Source: Methylomonas sp.
GTDB taxonomy: Bacteria; Pseudomonadota; Gammaproteobacteria; Methylococcales; Methylomonadaceae
Reading direction: 5' to 3'
NCBI GenBank assembly: GCA_002929135.1
Contig: PESC01000018.1
Location: 1 to 59,944, forward strand
Length of the DNA stretch: 59,944 bases
The notes below the pieces were generated by a model, which was not told the origin of the DNA, did not search any database, and was given only the letters and a program-made list of their open reading frames with translations. The position numbers were made by a program, and so were the translations under genes. Positions 53,407 to 59,490 of the stretch are shown one piece after another. Positions within the stretch are counted from its first letter, which is position 1. Each line of letters begins with the position of its first letter.

Positions 53407-53483
53407 CGGGGTATAGCGCAGTCTGGTAGCGCGTCTGCTTTGGGAGCAGAATGTCGGGAGTTCGAATCTCTCTACCCCGACCA
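53407..53483 (+). tRNA. tRNA-Pro (anticodon TGG)
   Basis: A 77-base cloverleaf with CCA encoded. The acceptor CGGGGTA pairs with TACCCCG, the anticodon loop is TTTGGGA with TGG, and the T arm contains TTCGAAT. Confidence 0.95.
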
Positions 53484-53489
53484 CGATTT

Positions 53490-53566
53490 GCGCTTGTAGC
53501 TCAGACGGATAGAGCATCGGCCTTCTAAGCCGAGGGTCGCAGGTTCGAATCCTGCCAAGCGTGCCA
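53490..53566 (+). tRNA. tRNA-Arg (anticodon TCT)
   Basis: A 77-base cloverleaf with CCA encoded. GCGCTTG pairs with CAAGCGT (first pair G-U), the anticodon stem TCGGC/GCCGA encloses CTTCTAA, and the T arm has TTCGAAT. Confidence 0.93.
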
Positions 53567-53586
53567 TCCGAAATACAAATGATTAT

Positions 53587-53663
53587 GGTGAGCGTAGCTC
53601 AGTAGGTAGAGCCCCGGATTGTGATTCCGGTTGTCGTGGGTTCGAGCCCCATCGTTCACCCCA
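53587..53663 (+). tRNA. tRNA-His (anticodon GTG)
   Basis: It has the extra 5' G (G-1) opposite C73 typical of tRNA-His. The acceptor GTGAGCG pairs with CGTTCAC, the anticodon loop is TTGTGAT, and CCA is encoded. A weak CAACGA-CTC-TCGTTG hairpin follows at 53671-53685. Confidence 0.95.
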
Positions 53664-53856
53664 CCTAAATCAACGACTCTCGTTGCCCCCCCCAACATGG
53701 TTCGCTGCTAGCAAGTTTTTTCCGAATCCAATGACAATGCTCTATGACAAAAGAGCCTCCCCTGCAGACGCCACATAAAAATTCGGACAACCATTCAGAA
53801 GCTGTCTGGCAAAATAATTTTCAGTAAAATCAAGCCTTTTTGGGTGACGGCTAAAA

Positions 53857-53997
53857 ATGACTTACGAAAGCCATTTAAGTCAAGAGGAATGGGGCTTTAT
53901 AAGCAAACACTTTGAGCCGCCCAGTGCGCGAGGGAGCCGCCATAAGCACTGCAAAAAAATCATTGTGAACGCCATTCTCTTTTGTTCTAACGGGCAG
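53857..53997 (+). pseudogene. IS5-type transposase, N-terminal fragment
   Basis: From the ATG the translation begins MTYESHLSQEEWGFISKHF and continues to IIVNAILF, the N-terminal pattern of IS5-family transposases. It stops matching where the sequence joins another transposase fragment in opposite orientation (about 53990). Only about 45 residues remain and no catalytic domain. Confidence 0.6.
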
Positions 53998-54421
53998 GAT
54001 AACGTGGCGTACTTTCTACCGCAAACATAAACCCCAGCCGGTGATTTTTTACCGCCTTGAGGTTGTCCACACAGGCATACCAACTGTCCCCGGTCATGAA
54101 ATCCGGTTGTAATCCCCAGGCCAGCGCCTCGTCCAACATGTCGCGAAAATAGTCATTTTTGGTTTTGCCTTCCGCCTTATCGTAGATGCGGTAGTTGACG
54201 GGCAGCTCCATGCGTTGGCTGTAGGCTTTGTCCAAGGTGCTGTCATCCACGCTCAGCGTCCCGCCCACCAGATTCAATAGGCATTTGGCCTCATCGAACA
54301 AATCTTTCGGCTCGTAACTTTCTCGTAACAGGAAGCGATTCACGCTGTCATGGGTGATGTTCATCACCTCGGCAAGACGGGTGCAGGTGCTTGATTTCGG
54401 TTCGCTCATCAAAAATCCCAT
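53987..54421 (-). pseudogene. IS701/IS4-type transposase remnant
   Basis: About 145 codons: EPKSSTCTRLAEVMNITHDS and GGTLSVDDSTLDKAYS, then VNYRIYDKAEGKTKNDYF and VTGDSW-like FMTGDSWYACVDNLK, and a premature end at ESTPRYPAR. From memory of the family, about 40-45 residues are missing between DKAYS and PVNYRIY, and the whole C-terminal part with the catalytic Glu is absent. It is therefore inactive. Confidence 0.7.
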
Positions 54422-54550
54422 ATACCTTGGCAAGGTGCAGCGCGCCTCTGTCGCTGGGCGGCTTGGTTTTCTTATCATCCCTGAATCGCTCTTGGTAAAT
54501 GTTCTGCCGTCTCATATTTTTTGCTCATTCGTCAATGCGTAAGTCCTAGA

Positions 54551-54697
54551 ATGAAACGTATCGGCCTGCTGTTGGCAGAAAACGGCGTGTCCGTGATCTT
54601 TTTGCCTCGTTATTCTCCTGATTTGTCGCCCATCGAGCTGGCTTGGTCGAAAATCAAATCCAGCTTTTGCTCCGAACAACCATTACAAATCAATTAG
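54551..54697 (+). pseudogene. IS630-type transposase, C-terminal fragment
   Basis: A 48-codon frame with VIFLPRYSPDLSPIELAWSKIK, the C-terminal signature of IS630/Tc1-mariner (DDE_3) transposases. The upstream two thirds of the gene are missing. It shows that this IS family has been active in the genome, as the 55-180 element also suggests. Confidence 0.75.
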
Positions 54698-54873
54698 TTG
54701 CTAGCGAGCGCGGCTTTTTAAGTCACGGATTCAGGTTACAAGCAATCCGTCAACCATGCGTTTGCTACATGCGACTAACGGCTGTTGCCGATCAGGATTT
54801 TTAATCAATTTTTGATTTTGATTTTATAGAAAATTGAGATGGAAATCGGGACACTGGAACCGTGGTAGCGGCT

Positions 54874-54889
54874 GACTCAGATTTGAGTC
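54874..54889. promoter_or_regulatory. Palindrome upstream of the repeat-protein gene
   Basis: GACTCA-GATT-TGAGTC, a perfect 6-bp dyad about 60 bases before the repeat-protein start, in the expected promoter region. It could be an operator; no family was recognised. The interval 54698-54948 is otherwise AT-rich and gene-free. Confidence 0.35.
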
Positions 54890-54948
54890 GATAAAGTTGT
54901 TCCACTCTAACTTTTGGAATATTAAAATTTCTTTATGGAGTAATGGCG

Positions 54949-56238
54949 ATGAAACAATTTAATAAAACATTATTGGCTACCGGTATTGTCCTGGCTTTAG
55001 GGGCAGCGTCCAGCGCATGGGCGAACCCAACCAACACTGCGACTGAAGTAGTAGAAAGTCAGACCGCGAGCGTTGACTCAACTGCCAAAGGCCAAGGCAA
55101 CTCATCCATCAGTGAAGGCGGAACTTCTACTATCGGCGCAATTACTGACACCAAAACGATCACCAAAACTGAAACTGACACCAACAACAGTCAGGACAAT
55201 GACGTCAAGGAAAGCTACAACCAGGACAACGACACCAAAACCATCACCAAAACTGACACCAACAACAGTCAGGACAATGACGTCAAAGAAAGCTACAACC
55301 AGGATAACGACACCAAAACCATCACCAAAACTGACACCAACAACAGTCAGGACAATGACGTCAAAGAAAGCTACAACCAGGACAACGACACCAAAACCAT
55401 CACCAAAACTGAAACTGACACCAACAACAGCCAGGACAATGATGGCAAATCCAGGGCATCAGACCAGGCTGCATCCGTAGGTCGTGATGGCACTGCGACA
55501 TCCACCAATACAAAAACTGACACCAACAACAGTCAGGATAACGACGTCAAAGCCAGCTATAACCAGGACAACGATACTAAAGGAAGTTACAACCAAGACA
55601 ACGACACTAAAACCATCACCAAAAACGACAGTGACAGCAGCGTTCATAACGACAGCAAAGGCAAAGCTGAAGATCAGGCTGCCGCAGTGGGTCGTGATGG
55701 CACAGCAACCTCCACTAACACCAGAAATGATGGCAGCTACAACCAAGACAACGATACTAAAACCATCACCAAAAACGACAGCAACAGCAGTGTAAACAAC
55801 GACAGCAAAGCCAAAGCTTCGGATCAAGCTGCATCAATCGGTCGTGATGGCACGGCAACGTCAAACAACAACAAATCTGATGCCGGCGGAGATGGCTCAG
55901 CATCTTCCAACACCGGTACTGCCACCTCTACGTATAGTGAAACCACTGTAAAAACCCAAGGCGATGCGTCACCCGCAGTAGCTTCGGGCGGTGGCGCGGC
56001 TTCTGTCAACAACTCTTACCTGGCTGGCAGTGTGACCGGTGAAGGTGCAGGCTACGCATTATTCGTTGATCAAAATGGCTATATCGTGCCTACCAGCAAC
56101 AGCATTAATGGTTCCTACAATAATTTTGCCGGTATTAACCAGTCGGTACAAAACTCAGGTAATTCTTCGTTGGCGCAACAACAGGTGTCTTTCCAAGGCA
56201 ATGTTAACGTCAACCAAAATACACCTGTAGCTCCTTGA
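54949..56238 (+). CDS. Secreted Asn/Asp-rich tandem-repeat protein, amyloid-subunit-like
   Basis: A 429-residue precursor without cysteine. The signal peptide ends SSAWA. About 75-155 is a perfect or near-perfect tandem repeat of 26 residues beginning TDTNNSQDNDVKESYNQDND, three full units and decayed copies beyond. A second motif, DQAASVGRDGTATS, recurs three times. The C-terminal part (NNFAGINQSVQNSGNSSL) is Asn/Gln/Ser-rich, as in functional amyloid and curli-like subunits. The genes downstream match FapD-E-F, so it may be the fibre subunit, though it is not obviously homologous to FapC. GGAG eight bases upstream sets the start. Confidence 0.75.
   Translation: MKQFNKTLLATGIVLALGAASSAWANPTNTATEVVESQTASVDSTAKGQGNSSISEGGTSTIGAITDTKTITKTETDTNNSQDNDVKESYNQDNDTKTITKTDTNNSQDNDVKESYNQDNDTKTITKTDTNNSQDNDVKESYNQDNDTKTITKTETDTNNSQDNDGKSRASDQAASVGRDGTATSTNTKTDTNNSQDNDVKASYNQDNDTKGSYNQDNDTKTITKNDSDSSVHNDSKGKAEDQAAAVGRDGTATSTNTRNDGSYNQDNDTKTITKNDSNSSVNNDSKAKASDQAASIGRDGTATSNNNKSDAGGDGSASSNTGTATSTYSETTVKTQGDASPAVASGGGAASVNNSYLAGSVTGEGAGYALFVDQNGYIVPTSNSINGSYNNFAGINQSVQNSGNSSLAQQQVSFQGNVNVNQNTPVAP
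55174..55407 (+). repeat. Three tandem 78-bp repeats
   Basis: Unit starts at 55174, 55252 and 55330 are exactly 78 bp apart, with only a few synonymous differences. Partial units continue at 55414, about 55514 and beyond. The near-identity at DNA level indicates recent duplication. Confidence 0.9.
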
Positions 56239-56266
56239 TCTCGATATTGTGAATTGAGATGAGCCC

Positions 56267-56298
56267 GTCGGCGAACAAGAAATTGTTCGCCGACTTTC
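56267..56298 (+). terminator. Intra-cluster terminator or attenuator
   Basis: An 11-bp perfect stem, GTCGGCGAACA / TGTTCGCCGAC, with a six-base loop, followed by TTTCTT. It lies 29 bases after the repeat-protein stop and 30 bases before the next gene, so partial termination would give much more of the first product. Confidence 0.65.
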
Positions 56299-56330
56299 TT
56301 GGCGATGGTTTAACAACAGGGAGAAATGTC

Positions 56331-56684
56331 ATGAAAAGAACAGTTACCGGTTTTTTTTCGATACTCCTGGTAGTCGGCCTGCCCATTCAGAGCATTGATG
56401 CCGGGCAAAGTGTTGAATTGTTTTTTGAGCAGACAGAAGCAGTCTTGCTCGAAGAGCTGGATAATGAAAGAGGCAAGGGGGATATTGACATCGTCACACT
56501 GAACAACGCCACTGCCCAAGCATTGTTGAAAAATAGTACGTCTTATAACAATATCACCGGAAATAATATTATCGATAGTAGCTCATTTTCAGGCTCCAGC
56601 GGCTTAGTATCGGTAATACAAAACAGCGGCAATAATGTAATCATTCAGGACTCCACCATTATCAATGTAACGATCGTTCCTTGA
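56331..56684 (+). CDS. Small secreted Asn-rich protein, possible minor subunit
   Basis: A 117-residue precursor. The signal peptide ends SIDA; an acidic segment follows (VELFFEQTEAVLLEELDNERGKG). The C-terminal 60 residues are Asn/Ser/Ile-rich (NNITGNNIIDSSSF, VIQNSGNNVIIQDST). VIQNSGNN resembles the subunit C-terminus and the next secreted protein (IIQNSLDN), so it may be a minor subunit or nucleator. GGGAG precedes the start. It is followed by the peptidase gene after 17 bases. Confidence 0.65.
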   Translation: MKRTVTGFFSILLVVGLPIQSIDAGQSVELFFEQTEAVLLEELDNERGKGDIDIVTLNNATAQALLKNSTSYNNITGNNIIDSSSFSGSSGLVSVIQNSGNNVIIQDSTIINVTIVP

Positions 56685-56701
56685 TTGATGAGGCGTATGC
56701 C

Positions 56702-57403
56702 ATGAAACATAAAAACCTAACCATTTATTTTGGTTTGTTGATATGGATGTTGTCTGCCGAGGTTTATTCCGGCTCCATTGAACTGAATGGCATTTCCGGT
56801 GGCGGAAATTACTCCATTCCAATGACCAGCTACGTCGAAAGGCGGTTCAAAACTGTTTATAAACAACAATACGATTTCAGTTGCGGCTCTGCCGCGCTGG
56901 CGAGTTTGCTGGCGTTCCATTACAACGATGTGGTCGATGAGCAAAGCGTTTTCTTGGATATGTATCAAAGTGGCGATCAGGCAAAAATACAAAAACAAGG
57001 ATTCTCGCTGCTGGATATGAAAATGTATCTGCAGCGTCGCGGCTACGAAGCCAACGGTTTCAAAATAAACCTCGACGGCCTGCTGAAAGCCAATGCCCCA
57101 GCCATTACCATCATCAACAACAAAGGTTACTTGCACTTTGTCATTATCAAAGGCCTTGATGCCGATGAAGTTTTAGTGGGCGACCCCGCCATTGGCGTTA
57201 AAGTCATACCCAGGCCAGAATTTGAACAAATGTGGGAAAATCGCATATTGTTTTTGATACACGATAAAGACATTGTCACCGAAAATCATTTTCAGGATGA
57301 AAACGAATGGGCGATCAGGGTCAGGTCGCCACTGGGAACCGCAGTAAACACGGAGAGTTTATCGGCATTCAACTTATTGCAGCCAGGGCGCTGGGACTTT
57401 TAA
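56702..57403 (+). CDS. C39-like papain-fold peptidase, FapD-like
   Basis: A 233-residue exported protein of peptidase family C39. The signal peptide ends EVYSG. The catalytic set is C61 in QQYDFSCGSAALASLL with the preceding oxyanion Gln, H145 in GYLHFVIIKG, and D161 in VLVGDPAIGV. C39 enzymes cut after double-glycine leaders. A stand-alone, ABC-free C39 protein is the hallmark of FapD in the Pseudomonas fap operon. The gene sits between two small secreted proteins, and the next one has a double-glycine-like motif. Codon use is AT-rich compared with the rest of the window. Confidence 0.82.
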   Translation: MKHKNLTIYFGLLIWMLSAEVYSGSIELNGISGGGNYSIPMTSYVERRFKTVYKQQYDFSCGSAALASLLAFHYNDVVDEQSVFLDMYQSGDQAKIQKQGFSLLDMKMYLQRRGYEANGFKINLDGLLKANAPAITIINNKGYLHFVIIKGLDADEVLVGDPAIGVKVIPRPEFEQMWENRILFLIHDKDIVTENHFQDENEWAIRVRSPLGTAVNTESLSAFNLLQPGRWDF

Positions 57404-57421
57404 TTTGCCAAGGTGCTCGAA

Positions 57422-57910
57422 ATGAAAAAAATAATAAGAAAATTTGTTTCGTATCGCCATGCTGCAGAAATTGTAATGCTATTGGCATCTTGTTTGGTTA
57501 ATCCAGCAGGGGCAGAGGATTTTTTTGAAGAAAATGACGATATTTTAGATGTCGCGCCAATCGCCAGTGATGCAGAATTAAACGAATTACGCGGTGGCTT
57601 TACTTTGCCCAATGGCGTCAATGTTGATTTCAGTATAGAAAAAATAGTCGCCTTGAATGGCGTAATAACCTTTTCGTCTTCTTTTCGCCTGCCAGAAACT
57701 ATTTCGCTGATACAGAACGGATTCGACAGAGTAATACCGGAAATAAATGGCGGCGGGCTGGGAAGCATTATTCAGAACAGTCTTGATAATCAAGTGATTA
57801 GCAGAATAAACACTATTAATATTGAACTGAGCAATCTTAGAAATGCTAATAGCAACCTAGGCAACATGGTTTTTGGTGACATGGTCATGCCAAACTTGTA
57901 CAAAAACTGA
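57422..57910 (+). CDS. Secreted protein with double-glycine-like motif, FapE-like
   Basis: A 162-residue precursor. The signal peptide ends around PAGA. Residues 48-59 are ASDAELNELRGG, fitting the double-glycine leader pattern at S-11, E-8, L-7, L-4, G-2 and G-1. The mature part would begin FTLPNGVNVDFS and contains IIQNSLDNQVISRINTINIEL, like the 117-residue protein. FapE of Pseudomonas carries, from memory, a similar DAELxxLRG segment. It is encoded 18 bases after the peptidase. Confidence 0.65.
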   Translation: MKKIIRKFVSYRHAAEIVMLLASCLVNPAGAEDFFEENDDILDVAPIASDAELNELRGGFTLPNGVNVDFSIEKIVALNGVITFSSSFRLPETISLIQNGFDRVIPEINGGGLGSIIQNSLDNQVISRINTINIELSNLRNANSNLGNMVFGDMVMPNLYKN

Positions 57911-58029
57911 AAATCGACATGTAATGTATTTTGATATTGTGAGGAATTATCGATTTGCTCTATGGAAAAGCAAGGACGTTTTGATGGCTTGTTTCCTAAT
58001 ATTTGGTGTGCAATAGTTTTGCATTGCAC

Positions 58030-58035
58030 TATACT
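58030..58035 (+). promoter_or_regulatory. Candidate -10 box before the barrel gene
   Basis: TATACT in the 260-base gap before the FapF-like gene. The -35 (TGTGCA) is poor. A separate promoter would explain the long gap. No gene is seen in 57911-58170. Confidence 0.25.
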
Positions 58036-58170
58036 TGGCAGGCAAGCGGAAAATTGAAAGGCTGTGGGTTAAGTGTATTTTGACCAGACAGGTATTGCTG
58101 CGACACATGGCAACTTGTCATCGATAGCCTTCGACTTTTACATCAAATCATCATATAAGCTTAGGTATAG

Positions 58171-59490
58171 ATGCAAATGAGGGCGAAAAAATCTGGTCAT
58201 CGAATATCAACGACCCAGGCAACTGTCATTGTGTTCTCCAGCTGGCTGTTGTTGTGCAACACGGCCAATGCAGAGTCGTTGAACCCTGAGCAACTCCTGA
58301 ACCAATACAAAAAGTTACTGGCGCAGCAGCAAAAAGAATTTGAAACACAACGAGAGATCATTGCCAATCAAGGCAAGGAACTGGAGCAACTCAAACAACG
58401 CCTCGACGCCTTCACCAGCCAGACCAGTGAAGGCAAACAACCCGCAACCAAGCCTGCAGCAAGGGTGATAGCACAAGCCACTACCGAACAGCCTAAACCG
58501 CAGCCTCCCCAGATGCCCATCAAGCCCGTGGGACAAGCCCCCGCCGAGACCACGGAAAAAGTCAGGCCACCTGAAATTCCGCGTTTGAGCGAGACCGTGG
58601 GCGGCGTGTTGACACGGAAAGGCAAGATCGCCATCGAACCGGCTTTTGAATACGGTTATACCGACAATGATCGTGTTTTCCTTGATGCCTTCACTTTCTT
58701 ACCGGCAATAGCCGTTGGCCTCATCGATCTCAGGCAAATTAAACGGCATACCATGATGGCTAGCGTGGCTGCACGTTATGGTGTTACCGATCGGCTTGAA
58801 CTGGAACTAAGGGCGCCTTATATCTACCGTACCGACACTCAGCGCTCCCGGCCCATCAGCATTGGCGCCGGTGTTGATGAAACCTTTAGTGCCAGTGGCA
58901 TGGCGCTAGGCGACATTGAATTCGCGGGGCGCTACCAACTAACCAGTGGCCAAAAGGGTTGGCCTATCTTGGTGGGCAATATGGTGGCTTCGGTGCCATC
59001 CGGGGTGAGTCCTTTCGATATCGAGTATGTAGCGGCTCAAGGTGTGCCTGGTGCGACGTTTCCAACCGAACTGCCAACCGGCGCAGGCTATTTCAGCTTT
59101 CAGCCCAGCATTACAGCGTTGTATCCAACCGATCCGGCGGTGTTCTTTAGCAATTTCAGCTACAACTACAATATGGAAACCGATGAAACCGTCGGTAATT
59201 ATGATCCCGGCAACGCCATCGGCTTGAGCTTTGGCATGGGATTTGGCCTCAATGAACGCTCGTCATTCAGCTTGGGTTATTCGCATCGGCACGTATTCAA
59301 CTCTACGCTCAACGCCATAACGATAAAAGGCAGCGAGTTGGATATAGGCCAATTATTGATTGGTTACTCCTACAAACTATCCCCTAAAACTACCTACAAT
59401 TTGGCATTGGGCATAGGCACAACCGAAGACGCACAGGATGTCCGGCTGAACTTCAGAATGCCCTGGACTTTTGATCTTGGCTCTAAGTGA
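58171..59490 (+). CDS. Outer-membrane beta-barrel with coiled-coil plug, FapF-like
   Basis: A 439-residue precursor. The signal peptide ends NTANA. Residues 40-82 form a heptad coiled coil (LLNQYKKLLAQQQKEF, then ELEQLKQRLDAF), and 90-145 is a Pro/Lys-rich linker. The remainder is a barrel of alternating strands (YGVTDRLELELRAPY, GLSFGMGFGLNERSSFSLGY) ending in an aromatic-containing strand (FRMPWTFDLGSK). This matches FapF, a trimeric channel with a coiled-coil plug that exports amyloid subunits. A generic porin-like transporter is the alternative. ATG codons at residues 1 and 3 are both possible starts. Confidence 0.78.
   Translation: MQMRAKKSGHRISTTQATVIVFSSWLLLCNTANAESLNPEQLLNQYKKLLAQQQKEFETQREIIANQGKELEQLKQRLDAFTSQTSEGKQPATKPAARVIAQATTEQPKPQPPQMPIKPVGQAPAETTEKVRPPEIPRLSETVGGVLTRKGKIAIEPAFEYGYTDNDRVFLDAFTFLPAIAVGLIDLRQIKRHTMMASVAARYGVTDRLELELRAPYIYRTDTQRSRPISIGAGVDETFSASGMALGDIEFAGRYQLTSGQKGWPILVGNMVASVPSGVSPFDIEYVAAQGVPGATFPTELPTGAGYFSFQPSITALYPTDPAVFFSNFSYNYNMETDETVGNYDPGNAIGLSFGMGFGLNERSSFSLGYSHRHVFNSTLNAITIKGSELDIGQLLIGYSYKLSPKTTYNLALGIGTTEDAQDVRLNFRMPWTFDLGSK

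Follow-up and report, generated by a model that had tools for sequence, protein, structure and literature searches.

A probable divergent Fap-type gene cluster in Methylomonas, with a double-glycine-type leader in its E protein and a C-terminal module shared by two subunits

We will start with the Fap system of Pseudomonas (fapABCDEF), the closest described system to the five genes which we report here from Methylomonas sp. (contig PESC01000018.1 of assembly GCA_002929135.1). What is said of it comes from excerpts of the cited papers. Cys38 of FapD is required for the secretion of FapC (Rouse et al. 2017, PMC5557850). The excerpt of that paper calls the target of FapD unclear and proposes FapF as a possible one; it also says that the Fap proteins have no canonical C39 sequences, that the GG/GA motifs of FapE hint at its processing, and that mass spectrometry gave no peptides from the first ~70 residues of FapE. 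A 2018 review gives the substrate of FapD as yet undetermined and reports fapD-fapF pairs in five further phyla (PMC6173800). The excerpt of a 2025 review names FapE and FapF as the proteins which FapD is "thought to" process; it calls Fap evolutionarily fixed, with three repeats, in connection with a survey seeded with a FapB/C repeat model (PMC12822426). FapD and FapF were already suspected to be members of larger families in a 2013 survey (PMC3792158). Among the matches listed in our literature search, which left subscription literature mostly outside, no title or beginning of an abstract describes a FapD cut site, and no paper joins FapF and Nitrosomonas. None of the matches listed for functional amyloid or a fap operon names Methylomonas.

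The window, i.e. the whole stretch of 59,944 nucleotides which was analysed, has five open reading frames (ORFs) between 54949 and 59490, all of them in the + strand. This is the arrangement of the original prediction, and the list of ORFs bears it out. They are separated by about 92, 17, 18 and 260 bases in gene order, and by eye each protein starts with a Sec-type signal peptide. The gene of the large protein has a further in-frame ATG at 54943. We interpret the cluster as a divergent fibre-export system of the Fap type, which belongs to a group of loci that we call class II and in which the peptidase would trim the E protein in the periplasm. The probability of this interpretation is in our opinion about 0.72. 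It is based on the genes themselves, their homology, the recurrence of the set in other genomes, the leader with its class-specific residue and a module found in two of the proteins; from these we infer the cleavage, the order of events and the formation of fibre and amyloid. The features of the cluster are the following.

54949..56238, + strand: candidate large fibre subunit of 429 amino acids, with a signal peptide, spacer repeats rich in asparagine, aspartate, serine and threonine, and a C-terminal module
55172..55412, + strand: spacer repeat, 3.1 copies of the 26-residue unit TDTNNSQDNDVKESYNQDNDTKTITK
55588..55859, + strand: second, longer spacer repeat, 150 bases in 1.8 copies, with A-DQAA-VGRDGTATS units
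56098..56217, + strand: C-terminal amyloid-like module of the large protein (NSINGSYNNFAGINQSVQNSGNSSLAQQQVSFQGNVNVNQ)
56331..56684, + strand: small protein s1 of 117 amino acids, with a signal peptide, a leader-like stretch and a copy of the module
56451-56477, + strand: leader-like EELDNERGK of s1
56565-56672, + strand: s1 copy of the module
56702..57403, + strand: periplasmic C39 peptidase, FapD-like (Pfam and NCBIfam matches)
56882-56884, 57134-57136 and 57182-57184, + strand: its catalytic Cys, His and Asp codons
57422..57910, + strand: protein in the E position, 162 amino acids, with a signal peptide and a double-glycine-type leader
57560..57598, + strand: predicted C39 recognition leader IASDAELNELRGG, with the predicted cut after Gly59, before Phe (57599)
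57764-57838, + strand: C-terminal QNS-type motif of the E-position protein
58171..59490, + strand: FapF-like outer-membrane exporter with a signal peptide (NCBIfam FapF, PDB 5o67)
58270-58428, + strand: coiled-coil-like stretch of the exporter (by eye)
58612-59472, + strand: barrel of the exporter

By homology the peptidase and the outer-membrane barrel are relatives of FapD and FapF. The peptidase matches the C39 family of Pfam (E-value 5.4e-20) and the NCBIfam models FapD (9.1e-37, 126.5 bits) and FilB (1.7e-34, 119.4 bits); the catalytic triad Cys61, His145, Asp161 is kept. The barrel protein matches the NCBIfam models FapF (NF058560; 4.9e-43, 147.5 bits) and FilC (5.2e-20, 72.1 bits), and the FapF crystal sequence (PDB 5o67) matches its residues 148-434 (4.5e-26). 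The original prediction had assigned the proteins at 56702, 57422 and 58171 to FapD, FapE and FapF. The first and the third assignments stand, the latter also with the crystal sequence. The second does not hold at full length: only the leader fragment of the E protein touches the FapE model, weakly (E-value 0.14). The large protein, s1 and the E protein have no Pfam family at an E-value of 1 or below. NCBIfam gives nothing for s1 or for full-length E, and for the large protein only a chance-level match to lipase_YSIRK (0.19). In the alignment of C39 peptidases position 139 is N in most class II and D in most classic sequences; an argument about the specificity pocket from such columns was not used, because nothing shows that this residue touches the cut site.

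In the E protein the Sec-type signal is followed by ASDAELNELRGG and then F. This is the form of a double-glycine leader of the C39 type, with consensus ELxxLxGG. RGG is present at this place in all 24 class II E proteins; in all 16 classic FapE homologues the context is the same, but the site is RGR or RGK (Fisher 1.6e-11, a value obtained with related sequences which are not independent events). Of the 24, L150 and L151 are closely similar and come from one genome, L011 and L014 from one species. The pattern [ED][LM]..[LMIV]RGG, which was picked after the motif had been seen, is found in nine ORFs out of 820 and it is the E protein every time; these are the ORFs of at least 150 amino acids, spurious frames included, from 44 sources (the window, L052-L089 and L104-L108). 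Six further class II E proteins from these sources have RGG without the full pattern. The profiles of classic and class II E proteins match over the leader and ~15 residues only, with a score of 42.6, while 20 column shuffles give at most 17.2. In two relatives, L142 and L146, RGG is also found at the leader site of s1.

Ten leader-region fragments were scanned against both databases: seven from class II E proteins, one from a classic FapE, one from a FapA-position protein and one from s1. Three of them touch bacteriocin-leader families of Pfam weakly (Mersacidin 0.013, Lactococcin 0.037, 0.15) and seven give nothing. Five touch FapE in NCBIfam, the classic one with an E-value of 2.5e-6 and four of class II with values from 0.0018 to 0.16; the remaining ones touch one family of ribosomally synthesised and post-translationally modified peptides with a GG leader, one unrelated family and, in three cases, nothing. 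No fragment reaches a curated cut-off in Pfam or NCBIfam.

Leader-like sequences are also seen in other proteins. The small FapA-position protein of a classic locus (L052, 3308-3622, oriented) has the leader-like VEDSELHEISGKG; its fragment has no family match in Pfam or NCBIfam. A Fil-like locus (L104, 4423-7672, reverse orientation) has tandem proteins, which we take to be FilA-like, with TDTAMSNATGQDGIDI near the N-terminus. This sequence resembles EELDSATGREGIDV in the s1 of Nitrosomonas; leaders of this kind may exist in Fil as well.

The gene set is not restricted to the window. A FapF-like match was found in seven of the 61 genomes of a search among relatives, that of the window included, among them three of the 36 other genomes of the same genus; the patchy presence in the genus would fit gain and loss. 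The set itself is present in three other Methylomonas and in four Nitrosomonas loci, either complete or truncated by contig ends or masking. In a draw of 369 genomes from the whole class, the FapF model matches 35 at 1e-15. The neighbourhoods are of several types: classic Fap, class II, more distant loci with C39 plus barrel, and barrels seen alone. Duplicate loci (L069, L071, L073, L076, L079, L080, L083 and L108) were replaced by wider copies. C39 and E occur together in 24 class II clusters; s1 is found in 22 of them (weakly in L070), the barrel in 22 and the module in 21, including L075, L081 and L142, where it was counted from the module profile search and had not been flagged by the locus survey. 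Some clusters do not show all the parts because contigs end. No E match was obtained in the barrel-only or module-only loci L018, L020, L064, L074/L152, L084/L147, L148 and L149, several of them at contig ends.

A tree of the C39 peptidases (49 rows, L055 being outside both the tree and the classic C39 profile) has a starred branch (98/95) which sets the 24 class II rows apart from 14 of the 15 classic rows and 10 others. The remaining classic row, L060, which is long and 47% filled, is included in the tree and falls on the class II side; therefore no group corresponds to one side of a tree branch. As judged from these sequences, class II is a branch apart from the classic fap loci, found in Methylomonas, Nitrosomonas and others of the class.

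The part of the large protein which is kept is its last 40-80 residues, with 11 invariant positions across the 13 rows of the alignment. This module is found once in the large protein of the window and once in s1, in both cases at the C-terminus; the two profiles match with a score of 50.1, the best of 20 column shuffles being 25.1. The mature E protein also matches s1 (37.4, shuffles at most 15.2). By eye, two relatives (L143 and L144) have four module copies per protein. L144 (7234-11641) has two such large proteins, each with four copies, one on either side of s1-C39-E and beside a convergent barrel gene. The multi-copy module was compared with the Fap repeats, taking 11 repeats (from three multi-copy proteins and two others) and 22 repeats of classic FapB/FapC homologues; the repeat pattern had picked up 4, 2 and 3 copies in the three multi-copy proteins, each of which has four by eye. 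The score is 25.6 over 35 columns, and two sets of 50 shuffles of this one comparison have maxima of 12.9 and 16.7. For s1 against the Fap repeats the score is 25.5, with a shuffle maximum of 16.7. Two of the five large proteins of relatives match the FapB profile, with E-values of 0.017 and 0.088.

The module accompanies Fap-like genes. It is present in 14 of the 369 genomes of the class, all within the 35 with a FapF match; half of these 14 gave no row to the module profile, and all seven have the match (p 4e-8). Among the 61 relatives it is found in five, four of them also with the barrel. In the fifth one, G038, the module, s1, C39 and E lie on two short contigs and no barrel was seen. This genome has two closely similar module-s1-C39-E clusters (L150 and L151) on separate short contigs.

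The large protein has no cysteine and is rich in asparagine, aspartate, serine and threonine. Its 78-base unit, found in 3.1 copies with a 98% match and a score of 468 in a tandem-repeat search, is a repeat beyond chance. It was this 26-residue repeat which the original prediction had taken as the definition of a new subunit, a claim which is not supported: the spacer repeats differ between species, and relatives carry other repeats in the same place. From this comparison the 26-residue repeat is a hypervariable hydrophilic spacer, and the module is the conserved part of the protein. The residues VILMFYW amount to 12.9% of the protein, which is mostly a spacer of low hydrophobicity. Its repeat had been described as very acidic. 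It is acidic, but a charge of -3 per 26-residue unit (net -25 over the 404 residues past the signal) falls below that description. The cation-binding coat which the prediction had offered as a possibility because of this acidity received no support from the analysis. The expectation that the large protein travels with Fap-type genes was confirmed, since the module was not found in any genome free of Fap-like genes. As a whole the prediction of a divergent fap-type system is partly supported; the leader of the double-glycine type, the module common to two proteins and the wider class had escaped it.

If the cluster works as we propose, its five proteins would enter the periplasm by Sec. There the FapD-like C39 peptidase would recognise and cut the double-glycine-type leader which stands behind the Sec signal of the E protein; the degenerate leader of s1 might perhaps be cut as well. 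Cleavage would license or open the FapF-like channel, and the large repeat protein, as a counterpart of FapC, would leave through the barrel together with s1, the counterpart of FapB. Outside the cell both would assemble through their common amyloid-like module, and the spacer repeats would project as a hydrophilic brush.

Several observations weigh against this proposal. The proteins of the window differ from those of Pseudomonas Fap in having no full-length profile match to FapB, FapC or FapE, and the matches to FapD (126.5 of 330 bits) and FapF (147.5 of 700) do not reach the equivalog cut-offs of NCBIfam. The mature parts of classic FapE and of the class II E proteins show no match (15.6, shuffle maximum 18.2). 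Nor does the module of the window type match the Fap repeats directly in a significant way (10.1, shuffle maximum 11.1); the link between module and repeats passes through s1 and the multi-copy relatives. The leader of s1 is degenerate. In classic FapE the cut is predicted at about residue 46-91, with uncertain starts, which is only a rough fit to the ~70 missing residues. The 10 more distant loci with C39 plus barrel gave no E match, and in L153, a class II cluster, neither s1 nor the module was seen. In G424, one of the seven genomes without a row in the module profile, the barrel is on another contig than the module genes, and the three contigs examined show no C39, E or s1, two further module-matching contigs being outside. 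AlphaFold models of E (6 rows) and s1 (5 rows) have a predicted local distance difference test (pLDDT) score of 34 and 41, respectively, and were not used.

The same export genes might have been reused for a disordered hydrophilic matrix which is not amyloid, such as a glue or hydrogel, the module being an export signal for the channel instead of an amyloid core. Most of the large protein is indeed spacer (12.9% VILMFYW), with one module copy in the window, and the C-terminal position of the module in two proteins, together with the match of mature E to s1 (37.4 versus at most 15.2), would suit an export signal. We consider this unlikely in view of the two relatives with four module copies, like amyloid repeats, and of the 35-column alignment with the Fap repeat. 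A different doubt concerns the RGG site, which could be a turn in the structure of the E protein, the peptidase cutting elsewhere, for example in the FapF linker. Cleavage at RGG is itself a prediction, classic FapE has Arg or Lys before the predicted cut, which is unusual for C39 peptidases, and FapF was also proposed as a possible target in 2017 (PMC5557850). However, the position and pattern of RGG agree with double-glycine leaders, the similarity of the two E classes is limited to the leader and ~15 residues, and the published mass spectrometry, in the excerpt of the same paper, has no peptides from the N-terminus of FapE. A turn thus seems improbable to us. It would be very surprising if the system were similar to those of bacteriocins, with C39 freeing an antimicrobial from E or s1: three of the ten leader fragments do touch bacteriocin-leader models weakly, but a FapF-type barrel is present, s1 and the large protein have a common conserved module and not a variable toxic core, and no ATP-binding cassette (ABC) transporter was noticed by eye among the ORFs from 50 kb to the end of the window, which were not all scanned.

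With fibre export of the Fap type as the preferred interpretation, a wider one has in our opinion even chances. The E protein would follow a route with two signals, Sec and then a C39-type leader in the periplasm; class II would be a second amyloid class with a variable number of modules and a variable gene layout, missed by surveys seeded with FapB/C repeats, and the residue before the cut would change from Gly in class II to Arg/Lys in the classic loci. If this is true, Fap is not the "fixed" amyloid of the literature. As the comparison suggests, Fap may be regarded as fixed in its synteny and number of repeats partly because the searches used a FapB/C repeat model. The class II E protein, with its textbook C39-type site, would make the question of the FapD target directly testable with small purified proteins, and its RGG would indicate the corresponding place in classic FapE. 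Candidate extracellular fibres would also be placed in methane and ammonia oxidisers.

Upstream of the cluster (53407-54700) the window has genes for transfer RNAs (tRNA-Pro, tRNA-Arg and tRNA-His) and then two transposase fragments, followed by a hairpin in the 5' region of the repeat gene.

53987-54478, minus strand: transposase fragment DDE_5/DDE_Tnp_1 (Pfam, below cut-off)
54551-54694, plus strand: transposase fragment DDE_3 (Pfam)
54862..54905, + strand: conserved hairpin

Two other Methylomonas, L015 and L017, have before the cluster a gene for a regulator whose C-terminal domain is of the OmpR type (Pfam), and a similar ORF is found there in L016. The regulator is not at that place in the window; the closest protein of the genome is on another contig, with 46% identity. 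The hairpin is kept in four Methylomonas with 15 predicted pairs, one two-sided change and several pairs broken in one sequence; it is possibly a regulatory RNA. Three Rfam matches of the 5' region, all below gathering scores and to what are presumably eukaryotic families, were rejected.

Among the known systems, curli (csg) resembles the cluster by eye in having an N/Q/G-rich module, but its channel is different and none of the five proteins matches a csg family at an E-value of 1 or below in Pfam and NCBIfam. The ABC systems with double-glycine leaders share with it an ELxxLxGG-type leader and a C39 domain with Cys, His and Asp; they differ from the window, where a Sec-type signal (by eye) stands before the leader and the peptidase is a stand-alone periplasmic protein. 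The Fil system, a putative pilus (FilB/FilC), has a similar C39 peptidase and barrel, below the curated cut-offs (FilB 119.4 of 475 bits, FilC 72.1 of 630), but four Fil-like loci have no s1 match, E match or module. The closest system is Fap of Pseudomonas, from which the cluster differs by its long hydrophilic spacers, by RGG instead of RG[RK] and by having, in place of three repeats, a single module in the large subunit (four copies in two relatives). Other differences appear in its relatives: the F gene is convergent to the rest of the cluster in six of them (L141-L145 and L153), and an extra small coiled-coil-like gene precedes F in L075, L078 and L081. No FapA-like gene was noticed in the cluster, but these models would not reveal one, as the FapA-position protein of a classic locus matches no NCBIfam model; the absence of FapA is the commonest fap variant in the excerpt of the 2018 review (PMC6173800). 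The cluster and Pseudomonas Fap have in common a FapD-like periplasmic C39 peptidase and a FapF-like barrel with a coiled-coil-like N-terminus, with the E gene between them, a leader of the type LSDxELxxLRG in the corresponding position of E, and a repeat-like module in two subunits.

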